Positions 40,281 to 47,598 of a stretch of 64,000 bases of DNA are shown here, in pieces. Position 1 is the first letter of the stretch; every line of letters starts with the position of its first letter. The position numbers were made by a program, and so were the translations under genes. Under the pieces are notes generated by a model. It had not been told where the DNA came from and did not search any database. It saw nothing but the letters and a program-made list of their open reading frames with translations. The stretch lies in assembly GCF_030687535.1 (NCBI RefSeq), contig NZ_CP117437.1:5949501-6013500 (forward strand), in the 5' to 3' direction. The stretch is from Pseudomonas sp. FP2335. Lineage in GTDB: Bacteria; Pseudomonadota; Gammaproteobacteria; Pseudomonadales; Pseudomonadaceae.

Positions 40281-40315
40281 GCCGGGCGGAAATGCGTTGC
40301 GGTTTTTACTGGATT

Positions 40316-40334
40316 AATGAGAAACATTCTCACT
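40316..40334. promoter_or_regulatory. Fur-box-like site upstream of the sigma-factor gene
   Basis: AATGAGAAACATTCTCACT is a near-palindrome (AATGAGA and TCTCACT arms) that fits the Pseudomonas Fur-box pattern derived from GATAATGATAATCATTATC. It lies 48 bp before the sigma-factor start codon, so iron repression of the haem locus is likely. Confidence 0.7.
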
Positions 40335-40382
40335 ATACTCGTGCCCTCTCCCGGTTCTGCCCGAGCATAGGAACGTGCCGCC

Positions 40383-40880
40383 GTGCTGGAAAAACTCTTC
40401 AATCAACACGCATCCGCGCTGCATCGCTACCTGTTGCGCAAAAAATGCACACCCAGCCTGGCCTCGGACCTGGTGCAGGACACCTTCCTGCGCATCGCCC
40501 AGCTGGAGAACGTGGAACGCATCCTGTGTGCGCCGTCCTACCTGTTTCGCGTCGCGCACAACCTCATGATCGACCACCATCGCCGCTACGGTGAAAAGCG
40601 CTTCGACAACGATGCCGCCGCCTATTTCGATACGTTGGTGGATGAGGCCAGCGGCCCCGAAGAACAGGCCCTCGACGCCCTTGCCCTGGAACAACTGGAA
40701 AGCCTGCTGGAGCGCATGCCAGAACGTACCCGTGACATCTTCCTGCTGTGCCGGGTCGAGGGCATGACGCACAAAGAGACCGCCCGCTATTTACGGATTT
40801 CCACAAGCTCTGTACAAAAACACATGGCGATGGCGCTGGCCAGGATTGGTAAGGCGCTTGACCCAGACCAGGAGGGCTAA
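40383..40880 (+). CDS. ECF sigma factor, FecI family
   Basis: The 165-residue protein has sigma-70 region 2 (ASDLVQDTFLRIAQ, PSYLFRVAHNLMIDHHRR) and region 4 (LLERMPERTRDIFLLCRVEG, followed by MTHKETARYLRISTSSVQKH), typical of FecI-type iron-starvation sigma factors. Translation starts at the GTG at 40383. A Fur-box-like site lies 48 bp upstream. A FecR-type regulator follows 43 bp downstream and a TonB receptor with a signalling domain after that, giving a complete cell-surface signalling set. The expected target is the receptor/hemophore promoter. Confidence 0.93.
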   Translation: MLEKLFNQHASALHRYLLRKKCTPSLASDLVQDTFLRIAQLENVERILCAPSYLFRVAHNLMIDHHRRYGEKRFDNDAAAYFDTLVDEASGPEEQALDALALEQLESLLERMPERTRDIFLLCRVEGMTHKETARYLRISTSSVQKHMAMALARIGKALDPDQEG

Positions 40881-40923
40881 GCCTTGGGTCTCTTGCAAAG
40901 CGATAAGGTAAACAGTCAGAACC

Positions 40924-41898
40924 GTGAATGCTTCCCCACAAACGACCGACCCGTTGGAGCGCAAAGCTGCCGATTGGGTGATGCGTCATCGACAAGGCCA
41001 GCTGTCGGCGCGTGAGCTAGAAGCTTTTCAGCGTTGGCAGGAAGCCGACCCCAGGCATGCCGCCGCTGCCGGTCGGGCGGATCGCGCCTGGCGCGCCACC
41101 GCCGCGCTCAAACGCCGCCCAGGCTATGTCAAACCGCAGCGCCCGCCACGCAGCCTCTGGACACGCTGGACAGCCACCAGCGCTGTCGGCGCCCTCGCGC
41201 TGGGGTGCTGGATGCTGCTTGCACCGCCCTTCTGGCTGCAAGCGCTGAGCAGCGACTATCACACCGGTTTCGGCGAGGTTCGCCACATCACCCTGGCGGA
41301 TGGCAGCCAGGTTGAACTGGGCAGCCACAGCATCCTGAACATCGCCTATGACGATCAGACCCGCCTGGTGAACCTGAGCCAGGGCGAAGCGGTGTTCACC
41401 CCATCGCCAATCAATGATCAGGAACGCCGCCCGTTTACCGTGCGCGCCCCCGGCGCCGACATCACCGCACGCGGCACGCGCTATCTGGTCGGTATCGGCC
41501 AGGAGCGTGAAGGCTGGGTTGGGGTGTTGCAGCATAAGGTCGAGGTCAATCTCACCCCTGCCCAGCGCGATGACGTGGCCGGGTCCGCGCTGCTGGAGCA
41601 AGGCAACAGCCTGCGCTTCAGCCCGAAAGCCGGGTTGGTGCCGCTCACCACGCACCCGGATGAACTGGCCAGCTGGCAGGAAGGTCGCCTGGTGTTCCAG
41701 CGCGAAGCGTTGGGCGATGCCGTGGCGCGCATCAACCGCTATCGGCCGGGGCTGATCGTAGTCAAAGGCGACACATTGCGCGCCGTGCGAATCAGTGCGG
41801 TGATGCGCCTGGACAACCTCGACGACGCCGTCAAACGTCTCGCACAGCAAGCCCACGGGCGCATTCTCGACCTGCCCGGGCTCACGCTGATCTACTGA
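40924..41898 (+). CDS. FecR-family anti-sigma/sensor protein
   Basis: This 324-residue transmembrane regulator should hold the partner sigma factor and receive the receptor signal in the periplasm. It has the N-terminal DUF4880 segment (AADWVMRHRQGQLSARELEA and FQRWQEADPRHAAA), one transmembrane helix near residues 86-106 (ATSAVGALALGCWMLLAPPF), and the periplasmic FecR domain (HITLADGSQVELGSHSILNI and FTVRAPGADITARGTRYLV). Translation starts at a GTG (40924); the ATG four bases on is out of frame. A weak terminator hairpin follows, so the receptor gene probably has its own promoter. Confidence 0.93.
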   Translation: MNASPQTTDPLERKAADWVMRHRQGQLSARELEAFQRWQEADPRHAAAAGRADRAWRATAALKRRPGYVKPQRPPRSLWTRWTATSAVGALALGCWMLLAPPFWLQALSSDYHTGFGEVRHITLADGSQVELGSHSILNIAYDDQTRLVNLSQGEAVFTPSPINDQERRPFTVRAPGADITARGTRYLVGIGQEREGWVGVLQHKVEVNLTPAQRDDVAGSALLEQGNSLRFSPKAGLVPLTTHPDELASWQEGRLVFQREALGDAVARINRYRPGLIVVKGDTLRAVRISAVMRLDNLDDAVKRLAQQAHGRILDLPGLTLIY

Positions 41899-41921
41899 AA
41901 GGCCGCGTCTGCGGGCCTTTT
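41898..41921 (+). terminator. Hairpin terminator after the FecR gene
   Basis: AAAGGCC-GC pairs with GC-GGGCCTTT around GTCT, with a short T run (four T). It starts at the last base of the fecR stop codon. Confidence 0.6.
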
Positions 41922-41937
41922 GACATCATTCATATAT

Positions 41938-41976
41938 AAAACGCGATACATAGACCATATCGATCTATCGCGTTTT
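41938..41976. promoter_or_regulatory. Inverted repeat upstream of the haem receptor gene
   Basis: AAAACGCGATA (41938-41948) and TATCGCGTTTT (41966-41976) are perfect 11-bp arms with a 17-base loop, about 65 bp before the receptor start codon. It could be an operator or an mRNA structure in the promoter recognised by the local ECF sigma factor. Function is inferred from position only. Confidence 0.45.
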
Positions 41977-42042
41977 GACTGCTGCTGCGTTTCTACTACA
42001 TGTGAATAACTCTTATTTGCTTTAGTGAGGCCGGTTTTGCAG

Positions 42043-45000
42043 ATGCAACAGAACCACAAGAAGCGCAAGGCAACCCATCGCACTCGGCTGAGCCTGGGGA
42101 TTCAGCTCGCCGTGTTCGCGCTGGCCGCCGACGCCGCCGACATCCATCCGCTGCAAACTCGCCCGGCCAGCAGCGCGGCCCAGGTGCAACCCCAAAGTAC
42201 GTATCACGACTTCGACGTCCCCGCCCTGTCACTGGACGAAGGCCTGGTCCTGCTGGCGCGCCAAGCCGGCGTCGAGGTGTACCTGGGCAGCAATGACCTC
42301 ACCGGCACCTACGGCAACCCGGTCAAGGGCCGGCTATCCCTGGAAGCCGCACTGCAACAACTGCTCGCCAACCAGGCGCTGACCTACAGCCTGGGCAACC
42401 ACCCCGAGCGGCCGATCATCCAGGTGCAACCCGCGCCGGGCATGAGCGGCATCCAGCAAGGCGACCTGCACCCGATCTACGTGCACGGCCTGGATGGCAA
42501 GGAGTCCCGCGACGAAAAAGGCTACAACGACATCTACGATCAGGACGTGTCCTCGGTGTATTCCGGCAAGGAACAGATCGAACGCTACAAAGGCGCCGCC
42601 CCCGCCGATATGTTCAAGGGCATGCTCAACGTCTACAGCGGTGACGGCCGCAACAGCGGCGCGCTGGACCCGAACGTGCGTGGCATCCAGGGCCCCGGCC
42701 GCGTGCCGCTGACCATCGATGGCACCGAGCAGGCGCTGACGGTGTATCGCGGCTACATGGGCGCCAACAACCGCAATTACATCGACCCCAACCTGATCGG
42801 CAGCATCAAGGTGCTCAAGGGCCCGAACCTGGAGCGCAACGTCTACAGCGGCGTGGGTGGCGCGGTAGTCGCCAACACCCTGAACGTGGATGACATCCTC
42901 AAGGAAGGCCAGGCATTCGGCGGCGAGCTGAAGGTGGAAGGCAGTAACAACTCGGTGTCGCCCAAGCTGCCGCACTTGATGACCGGCCAAAGCCCGCCCG
43001 CCGACTATCAGTACATCCCGATCTCTTCCTACTACGACCCGTCGTTGTACAAGCACCCACGCACCAGCCGCGACAACAACCTGATCACCGGCGGCGACTC
43101 GGCCTATCGCCTGGCCCTCGGCACCCGCCAGGAAAAATTCGAACTGCTCGCCGCCTACGCCTACCGCGAAAAGGGCAACCACTACGCGGGCAAGAACAAA
43201 AGCGGGTTCTACGCCACTGGCGAACAGGTCAACGGCCAGTTCGACTACATCCCCAATCTGGCCAACATCTACAAGCCGGGCGATGAAGTGCCCAACACCT
43301 CCAGCAAGATGGAGTCCTGGCTGGCCAAGGCCAAGCTCAAGATCGACGACGACCAATCCCTGGAGTTCGGCTACCGCGACACCGATTCGCTGTACGGCGA
43401 AATCCTGCCGTCACGCATTTCGTTCTTCCGCCCCGGCGACCAGTTCGATGCCGAATCCAGCGGCGTGCCGCAGTGGCCCCTGAGCCATGTGCAGAGCAAA
43501 GCCTACAACCTGGAATACAACCTCAAGCCCGAGGGCAACCCGTGGGTGGATTTCTATTCGAACCTCTGGGCCACCAATACCCAAAGCGACACCTACTCAA
43601 GTGGCGGCGTGCCCAACGCCACCAGCGCCGCCGACCCGGTGTTCAGGAATACCGCCGTCGCCAATGCCCAACATGACCGGGCCGGGGTGACCGTCAGCAA
43701 CAAACTCAAGTTGATCGACAGCCTGGACCTGACCCTGGGCGCGAGCTACCAACATGAGAAGTTGGGTTCCAAAGACAACTATTACGACGCGGCGATCTTC
43801 GACACCTTGCGCATGAACCCGCGCGCGGGACGCCGTGAAGAAAAGGAATACAACTTCAATTTCGAGTGGCGACCGGTGAGTTTTGCCAAGTTCACCGCAG
43901 GCGCGCGCTATTCATCGTATTGGGCGTTTGATGACTACTTGAAAGAAACCCAAGACAAAAGCGGTGCAACCACGCAGTGGGTCAATACGGCCTATCGCGT
44001 GGATTACACCACTCGCAAAACATTGACGGATGCTGAATGGAATGCCGCCGTTGATAAGAAAGTTGCCGACCTCAACGCCGCATTTGATCTGTTTGGCATT
44101 CCGCCGGAATTCCGCATCATTGATGTAAAGCAGTTGCAGGCAGAAACGCCGCGGGTTGAAGACACCCAACTTCGGGCTGTGTGGAATGCGGATGATAAAG
44201 GTCGCCTTGCCCGTTATAACGACCCGTGCATTCTGGCGGCCAATGCGGGCCAGAATGTAGTGTCTTGCGGCGTGTCCGATACCGGCATTGGCTACCAAAA
44301 AGACGTGACGGCCAAACATCAGAAAGACAGCGCCTGGGCGCCGACACTTTCCGGTACGTTCTATACCTCCGAGAACGGTCGGGTTTACATCCGCTACAGC
44401 GAGGCCATTCGCTACCCGAGCATGTTTGAAAGTACCTTGGGCTTTTCCTCCTCTCTCAACCCATGGGGGCTTGAACCCGAACACGCCTATAACTATGAGG
44501 CCGCGTATATCCATAACCTGGCCGGGTGGGGCGGCAGTGAACGCGCCGACGTCAAACTGACCTATTACCACAACACCACCAAAAACGTGATTGAACGCAG
44601 CCCGGAACTGGTGTTCAGCAACGTTGAAAAACAGACCACATCCGGCCTTGAGTTTCAGGGGCGTTATGACAGTGGGCGGTTCTTCACTGACCTGAGCGTC
44701 GCCCATGTGTTGAAGAACCGGGTGTGCGATGAGAGGTCGGCCATCACTATTACACCCGACGGCAGTACCCCAAACTGCGTAGATGATGGCTTTGTCGGTG
44801 GTTACCTGGCGAGCATGTCGCAACCCGAATGGTCGGCCAACCTCGGGCTGGGCGGTCGATTTTTCAACCGTAAGCTGGAAGTTGGCGGGCGCGCCATTTA
44901 TTACCGCCAACACGAAAACAAGTTTAATAAAAACTACCCCAACAGCCCCATGGTCAGTTACTACATCAATACACCGATGTCGTGGGACAAGATTGTCACG

Positions 45001-45156
45001 TATGACGCCTATATCAATTACAAGTTAACCGACGACGCCTCGATCGAACTCACCGGCACCAACTTGAGCAATCTCTATTACGTCGACCCGCTGACACGCT
45101 CGGCCATGCCCGCGCCGGGGCGCACATTAAAACTCGGCTTTACCACTACGTTCTAA
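42043..45156 (+). CDS. TonB-dependent haem/hemophore receptor with N-terminal signalling (STN) domain
   Basis: This 1037-residue outer-membrane receptor has, in order: a signal peptide (SLGIQLAVFALAADA), an STN domain (residues ~55-125; FDVPALSLDEGLVLLARQAG) that signals to FecR, a plug (~155-290; NVRGIQGPGRVPLTIDGTEQ), and a 22-strand-type barrel ending LKLGFTTTF. The motif AIRYPSMFE ... NPWGLEPEHAYNYE resembles the FRAP/NPNL boxes of haem receptors. It lies directly before a hemophilin-like gene and a Slam gene, like HphR in Acinetobacter. I chose the ATG at 42043 (GAGG 12 bases upstream) over a GTG at 42025. Codon choice changes near 43,900: the second half is less GC-biased. Confidence 0.93.
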   Translation: MQQNHKKRKATHRTRLSLGIQLAVFALAADAADIHPLQTRPASSAAQVQPQSTYHDFDVPALSLDEGLVLLARQAGVEVYLGSNDLTGTYGNPVKGRLSLEAALQQLLANQALTYSLGNHPERPIIQVQPAPGMSGIQQGDLHPIYVHGLDGKESRDEKGYNDIYDQDVSSVYSGKEQIERYKGAAPADMFKGMLNVYSGDGRNSGALDPNVRGIQGPGRVPLTIDGTEQALTVYRGYMGANNRNYIDPNLIGSIKVLKGPNLERNVYSGVGGAVVANTLNVDDILKEGQAFGGELKVEGSNNSVSPKLPHLMTGQSPPADYQYIPISSYYDPSLYKHPRTSRDNNLITGGDSAYRLALGTRQEKFELLAAYAYREKGNHYAGKNKSGFYATGEQVNGQFDYIPNLANIYKPGDEVPNTSSKMESWLAKAKLKIDDDQSLEFGYRDTDSLYGEILPSRISFFRPGDQFDAESSGVPQWPLSHVQSKAYNLEYNLKPEGNPWVDFYSNLWATNTQSDTYSSGGVPNATSAADPVFRNTAVANAQHDRAGVTVSNKLKLIDSLDLTLGASYQHEKLGSKDNYYDAAIFDTLRMNPRAGRREEKEYNFNFEWRPVSFAKFTAGARYSSYWAFDDYLKETQDKSGATTQWVNTAYRVDYTTRKTLTDAEWNAAVDKKVADLNAAFDLFGIPPEFRIIDVKQLQAETPRVEDTQLRAVWNADDKGRLARYNDPCILAANAGQNVVSCGVSDTGIGYQKDVTAKHQKDSAWAPTLSGTFYTSENGRVYIRYSEAIRYPSMFESTLGFSSSLNPWGLEPEHAYNYEAAYIHNLAGWGGSERADVKLTYYHNTTKNVIERSPELVFSNVEKQTTSGLEFQGRYDSGRFFTDLSVAHVLKNRVCDERSAITITPDGSTPNCVDDGFVGGYLASMSQPEWSANLGLGGRFFNRKLEVGGRAIYYRQHENKFNKNYPNSPMVSYYINTPMSWDKIVTYDAYINYKLTDDASIELTGTNLSNLYYVDPLTRSAMPAPGRTLKLGFTTTF

Positions 45157-45244
45157 CTTATGAGGTGCACCATGGGAGGCTAAAGAAGAAATTGGCAAAT
45201 GCTCTACGTGTTGACTTAATTAAATTCACTCAATGGAACATGAA

Positions 45245-46006
45245 ATGAAAACTTTTAACTACACCGTACTGGCAGTGGCTTTTCTTGGTTTGGCTGGCGT
45301 TGCTCAAGCAGATACTTCTTCCGGTCAAAGTTATGACGGCACCATCGTTGTAGATGGCTCCAGCGGCACGGGCACTACCAATCACCCGGGTGCAGCGGGC
45401 CAACCTGCCGTGGGCGTAAAAGCCTTTTACAACGGCGCCAAAGTGACGTTTGCCGGCCTGAAAGGCATGGTCCCCACCGACACCAACGGCGTCACCACCA
45501 TTACCCCGGCAATGATGCCAGCCTCCCACTCTGCACTGGGCAATTTCGACTTCAAGCAAGTTGCCAGCCAGCAGGTGTACTACGGCGAGTGGTCGCAGAA
45601 CGGCACCCACAACGATCCGACTCGCGTCGTGTACTACTCCGGCGACACCACCGGCCGTGTGCTGCCCACCACCAGCGTGACCTACGCGGTGCAGGGCATC
45701 AACAACTACTCCGGGGCTAACCTGCTGTCCGGCGACCTGACCGCCACCTTCGGCACCGCATCGCCCACGCTCACCGGTTCGCTGACCAACGCCGCGCTGA
45801 AAGTCGGGATTTCGGCCAACATCAACACCGCCACCGCCGGTTTCAGCGGCAGCGCCATTGCCCAGAACCCGACCACCAGCGCAGTGCTGGCAGCCGGCAC
45901 CACCCAAGGCAGCTTCTTCGGTGCAGGCTCCACCGCGTCGCTGGCCGGTATCGCCAAGTTCACCAACCGCAACTACGACACCGCTTTCGGCGGCGTAGCC
46001 AAGTAA
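45245..46006 (+). CDS. Secreted hemophilin-like hemophore (Slam client, TbpB-like C-terminal barrel)
   Basis: This 253-residue protein has a cleavable signal peptide (LAVAFLGLAGVAQA, cleavage after residue 22) and no lipobox; it has no cysteine at all. It should therefore be soluble and released, unlike classic Slam lipoproteins. The C-terminal part from about residue 158 is a small beta-barrel of the transferrin-binding-protein-like family, ending GSFFGAGSTASLAGIAKF and DTAFGGVAK, the usual Slam-recognition barrel. Only three histidines remain in the mature chain (H47, H95, H122), candidates for haem ligation. It resembles HphA/hemophilin by context (receptor upstream, Slam downstream); haem binding is inferred. 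The ATG at 45245 is chosen over 45233 because it gives a clean signal peptide. Confidence 0.8.
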   Translation: MKTFNYTVLAVAFLGLAGVAQADTSSGQSYDGTIVVDGSSGTGTTNHPGAAGQPAVGVKAFYNGAKVTFAGLKGMVPTDTNGVTTITPAMMPASHSALGNFDFKQVASQQVYYGEWSQNGTHNDPTRVVYYSGDTTGRVLPTTSVTYAVQGINNYSGANLLSGDLTATFGTASPTLTGSLTNAALKVGISANINTATAGFSGSAIAQNPTTSAVLAAGTTQGSFFGAGSTASLAGIAKFTNRNYDTAFGGVAK

Positions 46007-46034
46007 CTGCGGCTTGCACTGACGTAGCACCACG

Positions 46035-46068
46035 AAGCAAGTGCCTGGTCTCCAGGCACTTGCTTTTG
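46035..46068 (+). terminator. Hairpin (attenuator/terminator) between the hemophore and Slam genes
   Basis: AAGCAAGTGCCTGG (46035-46048) pairs perfectly with CCAGGCACTTGCTT (46052-46065) around a 3-base loop, followed by TT. The strong stem and short T run suggest partial termination, allowing high hemophore and lower Slam expression from one promoter. Confidence 0.7.
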
Positions 46069-46098
46069 GCGTTTTGAAGCGATCTCGAGAGCCCGGTA

Positions 46099-47598
46099 AT
46101 GCCCCAGCCCTACTGCAAGCGATCCCTCACGTTGCATGTTTTGCCCCTTTCCCTGCTGCTGTTTACGGCCCCAACGGTGTTCGCCGCCGACCAGGACACC
46201 AACCTGCGCCTGAACCAGAGCATCGAGTACCGCGCCAACAAGCAAGAGCGCGAGTTGCTCAAGGATGAACTGCCGAGTGACGGTGCCGCGCCGTCGCTGA
46301 CTATCGACGGCCAGGTCTACAGCGTCGGCAACAACCTCGACGAGCTGGGCCGCGCGGTGTACCTGAGCGTCGAGCGCCAGCAATGGCCGCAAGCCCGCGA
46401 CTATCTCAAGCGCTACACCGCCCTGCCCGGCCACGACCCGATGCTCACCGCCTACGCCAACGGCGGCCTGGCCCGCGCCGATGGCGACCTGGAAACCGCC
46501 GAACGCTATTACCAGGACCTGCTGGCCATCCAGCCCGACTTCCTGCCCGGTCGCCTGGAGTTGGCACGGGTACAGTTCGAGAACCGCAAGGATCGCGACT
46601 CCAAAGCCGTGTTCGAACAGATCAGCAGCAGCCTCAGCCCGTCGGACGCCCAAGCCATGGGCCTGGGCAAGACCGTCGACAGTTTTATCCAGGCCCTGGA
46701 CCATCGCGAAGACTGGCAAGGCTCATTCGCCATCGGTCCGACCTGGAGCGACAACCTCAACCAGTCCTCCGAAGGCAGCGTGACCTACCGCTATGAGACC
46801 GCTGAAGAGACCTACGTGGTCAAGCAATCCCTGCCCAAGGCGGTGTCGGCCCACGGCCAGGACTATGAGGCCACGCTCAACAAACGCATCTCCATCAGCG
46901 GCCATCACGGGCTGTTCGTGCGTTCGCTGCTGTACGGCCAAGCGTACGAAAAAGAGAGCAAGTACAACGAAGCCACCGTGATCAACAACGCCGGCTACAG
47001 CTACCACGATGCGCGCAACCAGTACGCATTCGGACCGTCCTACGAGTTCAACACGATCGGCGACAACGCCATGTACAGCGCCTGGGGCCTGCGCGGCGAG
47101 TGGATTCACACGCTCTCGGCCACACGTATGTTCAAACTCGAAGGCGAGTACAAGGACATGACGTACAAACACTCGATCAACAGTAACCTCGACGGCGGTA
47201 TCAGCTCGGTCTACGCCACCCTGTGGCAAGTCTTGCCCCAGCAATGGACGCTGTTCGGCGGCGTCGACATCACCGAACGCGACGCCCGGGACCGCGTCGC
47301 GGCGTACCTGCAAAAAGGTGTGCGCCTGGGCATCGCCAAGGACTTCGATATAGGCGTGAGTGCCGTGCTGTTTGCCTCGTACCGTAAGCGTCAATACGAT
47401 GCCTACAGCGCAATCGTCGATGACACACGGGAAGAGAATGAGCAGGGCTACACCTTCATCCTACGTGCGCCAAGACTGGCGGTGTACGACGTGGTTCCCA
47501 GCCTCACCGTCAAGTACAACAAGGTGCAGAGCAACATCGACTGGATTTATTCCTACGACAAAAACAGCATTAGCCTAAAGCTGGAGAAACAGTTCTAA
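46099..47598 (+). CDS. Surface lipoprotein assembly modifier (Slam) family outer-membrane translocon
   Basis: Slam proteins (type XI secretion) move TbpB-like lipoproteins or hemophilins across the outer membrane. The 499-residue protein has a signal peptide (VLPLSLLLFTAPTVFA), an N-terminal periplasmic tetratricopeptide-like region (residues ~70-195; DLETAERYYQDLLAIQPDFL and PGRLELARVQFENRKD), and a C-terminal DUF560 barrel (from ~210; GSFAIGPTWSDNLNQSSEGS) ending in an aromatic residue (SLKLEKQF). It follows its presumed client, the hemophilin-like protein, by 92 bp with an attenuator-like hairpin between. Confidence 0.92.
   Translation: MPQPYCKRSLTLHVLPLSLLLFTAPTVFAADQDTNLRLNQSIEYRANKQERELLKDELPSDGAAPSLTIDGQVYSVGNNLDELGRAVYLSVERQQWPQARDYLKRYTALPGHDPMLTAYANGGLARADGDLETAERYYQDLLAIQPDFLPGRLELARVQFENRKDRDSKAVFEQISSSLSPSDAQAMGLGKTVDSFIQALDHREDWQGSFAIGPTWSDNLNQSSEGSVTYRYETAEETYVVKQSLPKAVSAHGQDYEATLNKRISISGHHGLFVRSLLYGQAYEKESKYNEATVINNAGYSYHDARNQYAFGPSYEFNTIGDNAMYSAWGLRGEWIHTLSATRMFKLEGEYKDMTYKHSINSNLDGGISSVYATLWQVLPQQWTLFGGVDITERDARDRVAAYLQKGVRLGIAKDFDIGVSAVLFASYRKRQYDAYSAIVDDTREENEQGYTFILRAPRLAVYDVVPSLTVKYNKVQSNIDWIYSYDKNSISLKLEKQF

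Follow-up and report, generated by a model that had tools for sequence, protein, structure and literature searches.

Systems that combine a secreted haem-binding protein with a FecI-type sigma factor have been described before. The closest is the hemO cluster of Acinetobacter baumannii, described as consisting of an extracytoplasmic function (ECF) sigma factor, an anti-sigma factor, hphR, hphA, hsmA, a TonB-related gene and a haem oxygenase (PMC10483418). A FecI-like sigma factor, ABUW_2987, is reported within an eight-gene cluster together with FecR, TonB and HemO homologues (PMC5382811), and in 2011 it was proposed that a fecIR pair flanking an A. baumannii haem oxygenase operon regulates haem internalisation (PMC3224125). 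The operon in that proposal is very probably the same cluster as hemO. Here we analyse a locus of this type in a 64,000-nucleotide stretch of the genome of Pseudomonas sp. FP2335 (hereafter the window), in which genes for a FecI-type sigma factor, a FecR regulator, a haem-type TonB-dependent receptor with an STN region, a hemophilin and a Slam translocon follow one another. Judged from sequence, it is probable (about 0.8) that this is an operon for haem acquisition by a Slam-secreted hemophilin under the control of cell-surface signalling.

The operon is real, complete and conserved. It is a further case of a known type of system and not a new system, and the wiring of hemophilin to FecI/FecR is already known as a gene order. 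A preliminary description of this DNA had implied that coupling to a sigma/anti-sigma pair was novel; this does not hold, given that the A. baumannii order has been published and fecIR control was suggested in 2011. Three features were found in the present analysis: a candidate sigma-dependent promoter 5′ of the receptor gene, a hairpin between the hemophilin and Slam genes, and a near-invariant tyrosine in the receptor at the position of His189 of HasR.

Comparison with described systems

The window locus shares with the A. baumannii hemO cluster its five-gene order and a Slam-dependent hemophore of the HphA fold (PMC10483418, PMC8560813), and differs from it in having neither the TonB-related gene nor the haem oxygenase. 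The gene that follows Slam encodes a SUKH protein, and no TonB gene or haem oxygenase was found in the locus. The same genome encodes two haem oxygenases, both outside the locus (at 4.83 and 4.97 Mb of the contig), so that haem breakdown could be provided from elsewhere.

HasA, the hemophore of the Has system, is exported by the type I route, whereas the hemophore in the window is of the HphA family and is predicted to take the Slam route; the receptor also differs, in the tyrosine already mentioned. The likeness to the Has system is that HasR is the nearest solved structure to the window receptor, that both have a FecI/FecR-type pair (HasI/HasS in Has; PMC9249621), and that both have a secreted hemophore. 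The HasA profile (PF06438) gave no match in the source genome, and gave none in the control genomes either. The Fec system of Escherichia coli is described as having a Fur site at the sigma promoter and a receptor gene located 3′ with its own sigma-dependent promoter (PMC9249621), for which the window has a candidate. Its substrate is ferric citrate, whereas that of the window locus would be haem on a secreted protein carrier. The hemophilins of Haemophilus and Xenorhabdus (HrpC, encoded at hrp) are clients of the same type (6om5), and the Xenorhabdus locus is described as having a Slam-type secretor and a TonB receptor (PMC8406197); the words sigma and FecR are absent from the main text of that paper.

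The main text of a survey of type XI secretion system (T11SS) cargo contains none of the words Pseudomonas, sigma and FecR (PMC12282271). A literature search for Pseudomonas hemophilin returned titles on A. baumannii and Lysobacter only, and one for T11SS with FecR returned nothing; we do not claim from either that such work is absent from print.

Layout of the locus

The window lies in a 6.06-Mb single-contig genome. The five genes follow one another on the + strand, flanked by a Tim44-domain gene on one side and the SUKH gene on the other, and are separated by gaps of 43, 126, 88 and 92 nt. The features are as follows.

40313–40331, + strand: Fur-like box, with a TATACT −10-like hexamer at 40334–40339 (consensus match, conservation)
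40383–40880, + strand: FecI-type ECF sigma factor, 165 aa, GTG start (profile matches)
40924–41898, + strand: FecR-type regulator, 324 aa, with DUF4880 and FecR domains (profile matches)
41950–41968, + strand: 19-bp imperfect inverted repeat (conservation in Pseudomonas)
41973–41996, + strand: candidate FecI-type promoter TTTT-N11-CGTTTCTAC, 5′ of the receptor gene (conservation, spacing)
42005–42017, + strand: conserved block AATAACTCTTATT in the FecR-receptor gap (conservation in Pseudomonas loci)
42025–45156, + strand: TonB-dependent haem-type receptor (HphR/HasR-like), 1043 aa by mechanical start, with an N-terminal STN region and the plug at residues 181–268 (profiles)
45245–46006, + strand: hemophilin (HphA family), 253 aa, with His47 and His95 (profiles, solved-structure matches, model)
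46037–46063, + strand: hairpin GCAAGTGCCTGG-TCT-CCAGGCACTTGC followed by TTTT, in the client-Slam gap (folding)
46099–47598, + strand: Slam, the type XI secretion outer-membrane protein, 499 aa (profiles)

All six elements named in the preliminary description (Fur-like box, sigma factor, FecR, STN receptor, client and Slam) are therefore present, on one strand and in the order given there.

Hemophilin and Slam

The protein encoded between the receptor and Slam (the client) matches both Pfam hemophilin domains, with 86.2 bits for HphA_N (cut-off 22) and 76.1 bits for HphA_C (cut-off 31). It also matches the NCBIfam family Slam-dependent surface lipoprotein with 103.3 bits, above the cut-off of 80, which is the name given by NCBI to such clients in several Pseudomonas. 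Six hemophilin-type sequences of solved structure were matched, the best being the hemophilin 8gmm (E 4.5e-36), and an AlphaFold2 model built on a 30-row alignment has a mean predicted local distance difference test (pLDDT) score of 89.7. The signal peptide runs to about residue 22, as read by eye. The gene probably starts at 45245 and not at the mechanical open reading frame start of 45233, which gives the 253 residues stated previously. Slam matches SlipAM with 183.6 bits and TPR_Slam with 76.3 bits, both over the cut-off, and begins 92 nt 3′ of the client; it is the sole match of its kind in its genome at E 0.01, just as the client is the only HphA_N match. The assignment of this pair as hemophilin and Slam, which had been made without database searches, is thus borne out by both HphA domains, the solved hemophilins and the two Slam domains, and Slam is expected to export the client. 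A reading of the client as merely TbpB-like was ruled out by the specific HphA_N and HphA_C matches.

The haem ligands of HphA are described as H43 and H106, with S105 contacting a propionate (PMC8560813). Ser94-His95 of the client aligns with the S105-H106 pair. His47, in the N-terminal loop, is placed two residues ahead of the HphA-type histidine in the alignment, which is near but not exact. We infer from these residues that the client binds haem.

Some hemophilin paralogues have neither haem-ligand histidine. They were seen in L008 (7135–7884, the first copy), L029 (6049–6831) and L060 (9720–10436); the one in L008 stands in tandem before a normal copy, and those in L029 and L060 are in loci without a receptor nearby. 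Two tandem hemophilin genes are also found in L030 (8536–10115) and L056 (9484–11063), and the first copy in L030 retains one of the two histidines.

Receptor

The receptor passes the Pfam cut-offs for both the barrel (78.8 bits) and the plug (43.1 bits). The nearest solved structure is HasR (E 3e-32), with an alignment over residues 50–309, that is, from residue 50 through the plug. Its nearest NCBIfam entry is a haem/haemoglobin receptor family, with a score below the cut-off (195.6 vs 316.85 bits). A profile of the N-termini of six Pseudomonas receptors matches a profile made from the N-termini of six relatives whose receptors pass the Pfam STN cut-off, with a probability of 98.5 and E 1.6e-15. 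On the basis of this match and of the N-terminal alignment with HasR, we take the STN region to be present.

The position of HasR His189, a haem ligand in the plug, is occupied by Tyr244 in the window receptor. Of the 19 receptors aligned, 18 have tyrosine here and one has phenylalanine, and there is no position at which all of them have histidine.

Sigma factor, FecR and the STN region

The sigma factor matches Sigma70_r4_2 with 58.8 bits (cut-off 25.7), and its best NCBIfam relative is FecI, with 85.7 bits, under the family cut-off of 185. FecR matches PF04773 with 57.6 bits (cut-off 24) and carries DUF4880 at its N-terminus, with a hydrophobic stretch between the two domains that we read by eye as a membrane span. 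An ECF sigma factor and a FecR-domain regulator thus adjoin a TonB receptor, which is the gene set of FecI-FecR signalling.

If the STN region serves FecR, then STN and FecI/FecR should be gained and lost together. An STN match (E up to 1) was obtained in 18 of 18 scored receptors of the window's type that have FecI/FecR, and in none of the three that lack them. The receptors counted are the 19 of our alignment A2, of which 16 are STN-positive, together with those of L043 and L056, which were scored apart. The STN-less receptors (L031, L058 and L075) come from the same three loci that have no visible FecI/FecR, and have 38–71 residues ahead of the plug, compared to 126–181 in the 16 STN receptors. 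The contig of L058 (G1298) has 671 nt ahead of the client, so FecI/FecR could lie further 5′. These three relatives differ from the window locus in both respects, and we set them beside the Haemophilus and Xenorhabdus systems.

The count leaves out L029 (no receptor), L060 (none near), L045, L049, L074 and L085 (cut by contig ends), and L044 and L048, whose STN receptors differ in type from that of the window; FecI/FecR accompany the one in L048 and were not seen in the stretch read of L044. The receptors of the intact loci L002, L005, L007, L008, L010, L011, L013, L026, L083, L084, L086 and L087 are outside the Pfam scoring. The FecI-FecR-STN wiring put forward in the preliminary description is supported by protein family, by sequence and by comparison.

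Distribution and gene order

Of 298 Pseudomonas genomes, 9 have an HphA_N match, as do 3/369, 11/390 and 9/398 genomes sampled from the class, order and phylum, respectively. These four samples overlap, and each includes the source genome. Further samples gave 1/32, 5/197, 6/160 and 7/48. A search for the same gene order in Pseudomonas, proposed earlier as a check, found FecI-FecR-receptor-client-Slam in 16 of the 17 hemophilin loci read, with small variations: a second client in L008, a client fragment in L011, and a split Slam frame in L027 (9189–10685), where the other operon genes are open. The exception is L029, which consists of a client and Slam only, the client being identical to a Pseudomonas parafulva protein. 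The locus adjoins Tim44-like and SUKH genes in 12 of the 16.

The same parts are found, again with small variations, in the genera that we label g299, g167, g289, g293, g411 and g600. Slam precedes FecI/FecR in g293, and two extra genes stand between receptor and client in both g411 and g600. Genus g299 is Marinomonas, the client of L085 being identical to a Marinomonas rhizomae protein. Genus g167 is probably Stenotrophomonas, to judge from the client of L057, which shares 71% identity with a protein from a Stenotrophomonas sp. and is nearly identical to the solved 8gmm; a hemophilin of known structure is therefore almost matched by one in a FecI-FecR locus. The g167 loci have the same order as the window in 5 of 5 cases (L030, L056, L057, L086, L087). 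They differ in the client (44% identical to that of the window, for L057), in the sequence of the promoter region, and in having two clients in L030 and L056.

PKD-domain proteins are encoded 5′ of hemophilin in four loci: L044 (8919–12263), L048 (4985–7783), L059 (11208–12557) and L073 (5811–7154 and 7241–8611). In L059 and L073 they stand between a receptor of the window's type and the client. They may be further surface cargo.

Control elements

The Fur-like box at the head of the row, as claimed in the preliminary description, is the best 19-mer in the window. It has 14 of 19 matches to the Fur consensus, a score reached by none of the 19-mers in 20 simulated windows. The block containing it, 5′ of the sigma gene, is kept in the 15 Pseudomonas loci that were aligned and can be made out in a sixteenth, L009. 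No promoter was flagged at 40300–40340 by a simple scan for the sigma-70 consensus.

The gap between FecR and the receptor gene is the longest, and contains three conserved blocks, at 41950–41968, 41973–41996 and 42005–42017. In the second of these, all 16 Pseudomonas loci have TTT and CGT. The spacing TTT[TC]-N11-CG[GT] is present in five of seven genus representatives, compared to a mean of 0.40 and a maximum of 2/7 in 100 shuffles, for a motif that was picked by eye from the same sequences in which it was counted. Because of this, only new loci test the motif, and it is present in two of four, both of them from Marinomonas, a genus already seen. A fifth, L085, is outside the test because its contig carries no receptor. 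We consider TTTT-N11-CGTTTCTAC to be a good candidate for a sigma-dependent promoter of the receptor gene. The inverted repeat at 41950–41968 is not a Fur-like site in the Fur scan, and is possibly an operator.

At 45172–45183 and 45204–45221, the gap between receptor and client has a conserved block and, in most Pseudomonas loci, a tiny ATG-GGA-GGC-TAA frame behind a purine-rich stretch; the ATG is absent from L027 and L028.

The hairpin in the client-Slam gap folds in 16 of 16 Pseudomonas loci, that of L028 being of unrelated sequence, and client-Slam hairpins of unrelated sequence are found also in several other genera. The statistics are mixed. Seventeen of 19 client-Slam gaps were long enough to score, with 10 receptor-client gaps as controls. 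The stem was equalled by at most 10 of 200 shuffles in 8/17 client-Slam gaps, and the minimum free energy (MFE) had z ≤ −2 in 11/17; among the controls, 4/10 passed the stem test and 4/10 the MFE test. A simple terminator scan did not flag the hairpin at 46037–46063. It probably acts as an attenuator that would yield more hemophore than translocon.

Proposed mechanism and alternatives

The sequence itself shows the genes and their domains, the Fur-like box, the histidines, the gene order and the conserved intergenic blocks, from which haem binding, secretion, signalling, use of the promoters and attenuation are inferred. The following scheme would account for the arrangement. At low iron, Fur would leave the first promoter, allowing transcription of the sigma and FecR genes. 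Hemophilin exported by Slam would capture extracellular haem and pass it to the outer-membrane receptor, whose occupation would be signalled through STN to FecR and so activate the FecI-type sigma factor. The active sigma factor would then drive the promoter directly 5′ of the receptor gene and raise receptor, hemophilin and Slam together, with the client-Slam hairpin probably setting hemophore output above that of the translocon. The system is very probably self-activating, by way of this signal from receptor to sigma factor.

Several results weigh against this scheme. The STN region of the window is below the Pfam cut-off of 28.4, scoring 20.8 bits as a fragment and 16.2 bits (residues 99–125) in the whole protein, and of 15 STN regions scored singly, seven passed and eight did not, the weakest having 14.2 bits. 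In the receptor tree the STN-bearing and STN-less receptors fall on two sides of one branch (98/97), requiring one change, with a warning from the tree tool that long branches come together in the STN-less part. The co-occurrence is therefore counted as one evolutionary step and not as many independent events, and for the same reason a count of ten independent genera for the pairing (Fisher p 0.008) was dropped. In L044, hemophilin stands about 5 kb away from an STN receptor that belongs to another type, and no FecI/FecR was seen in the 16.5 kb read; this locus is unscored because the stretch read ends at the start of that receptor. At the promoter, the motif was found in 0 of 2 new g167 loci, and an unbiased search of seven promoter regions for shared dyads gave no significant result (best support 4, equalled by 31 of 300 shuffled sets). 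The lack of a haem oxygenase in the locus, in which it departs from hemO, belongs here too.

The nature of the signal is a separate matter. It is plausible that the cell senses its own returning loaded hemophore. The full form of this idea, in which the receptor would be switched on through contact with its own hemophilin, coming back loaded with haem (making the hemophore an extracellular messenger) and would take the haem via the tyrosine at the HasR His189 position, is tentative, and we would sooner doubt it than assume it. There is a serious possibility, a little short of an even chance, that the wiring is right and that the receptor responds to haem whatever its origin, hemophilin being a carrier that supplies haem without itself being sensed. 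In A. baumannii, HphR can reportedly act in the absence of HphA (PMC8560813, PMC8977872), so haem at the receptor could suffice. The source genome also has a second FecI-FecR-receptor locus (L066, approximately 4822600–4827600), with an STN receptor and an adjoining haem oxygenase; the sole HphA_N match in the genome being that of the window, L066 has no hemophilin, and such a locus evidently does not need one. Set against this is the presence of the client in loci that have FecI/FecR and a receptor of the window's type, a point that is biased because the loci were found through the client.

Two further explanations were weighed. The operon might be an ordinary Fur-controlled uptake system transcribed by read-through from the sigma promoter, with FecI-FecR acting mainly on other targets, as the close spacing of the genes and the Fur-like box at their head would allow; we regard this as unlikely, because the gap 5′ of the receptor gene is the longest and contains blocks that 16 Pseudomonas loci have in common, and because the STN receptor of the window's type is paired with FecI/FecR in every locus that could be scored. 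It is very unlikely that the client is a Slam-secreted protein of hemophilin fold that binds a ligand other than haem. The relatives in L008 (first copy), L029 and L060 that have lost both histidines do indicate that the fold can exist without the ligands, but the window client retains both histidines and the Ser-His pair, and its receptor is nearest to HasR and the haem-receptor families.

Significance

The results indicate that FecI-FecR wiring is stable across an entire branch of the hemophilin receptors, including Pseudomonas, Marinomonas, probably Stenotrophomonas and others, and is not peculiar to the A. baumannii island. The Fur-like box, the candidate sigma promoter and the client-Slam hairpin are named DNA elements that make self-regulation testable in environmental Pseudomonas. 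The near-invariant tyrosine raises a biochemical question, namely whether hemophilin receptors take haem via tyrosine where HasR has histidine. If the receptor does respond to its own returning hemophilin, then, within the literature covered, it would be the first case outside the HasA family of a circuit shown to sense a hemophore, and would be built on an unrelated hemophore fold.

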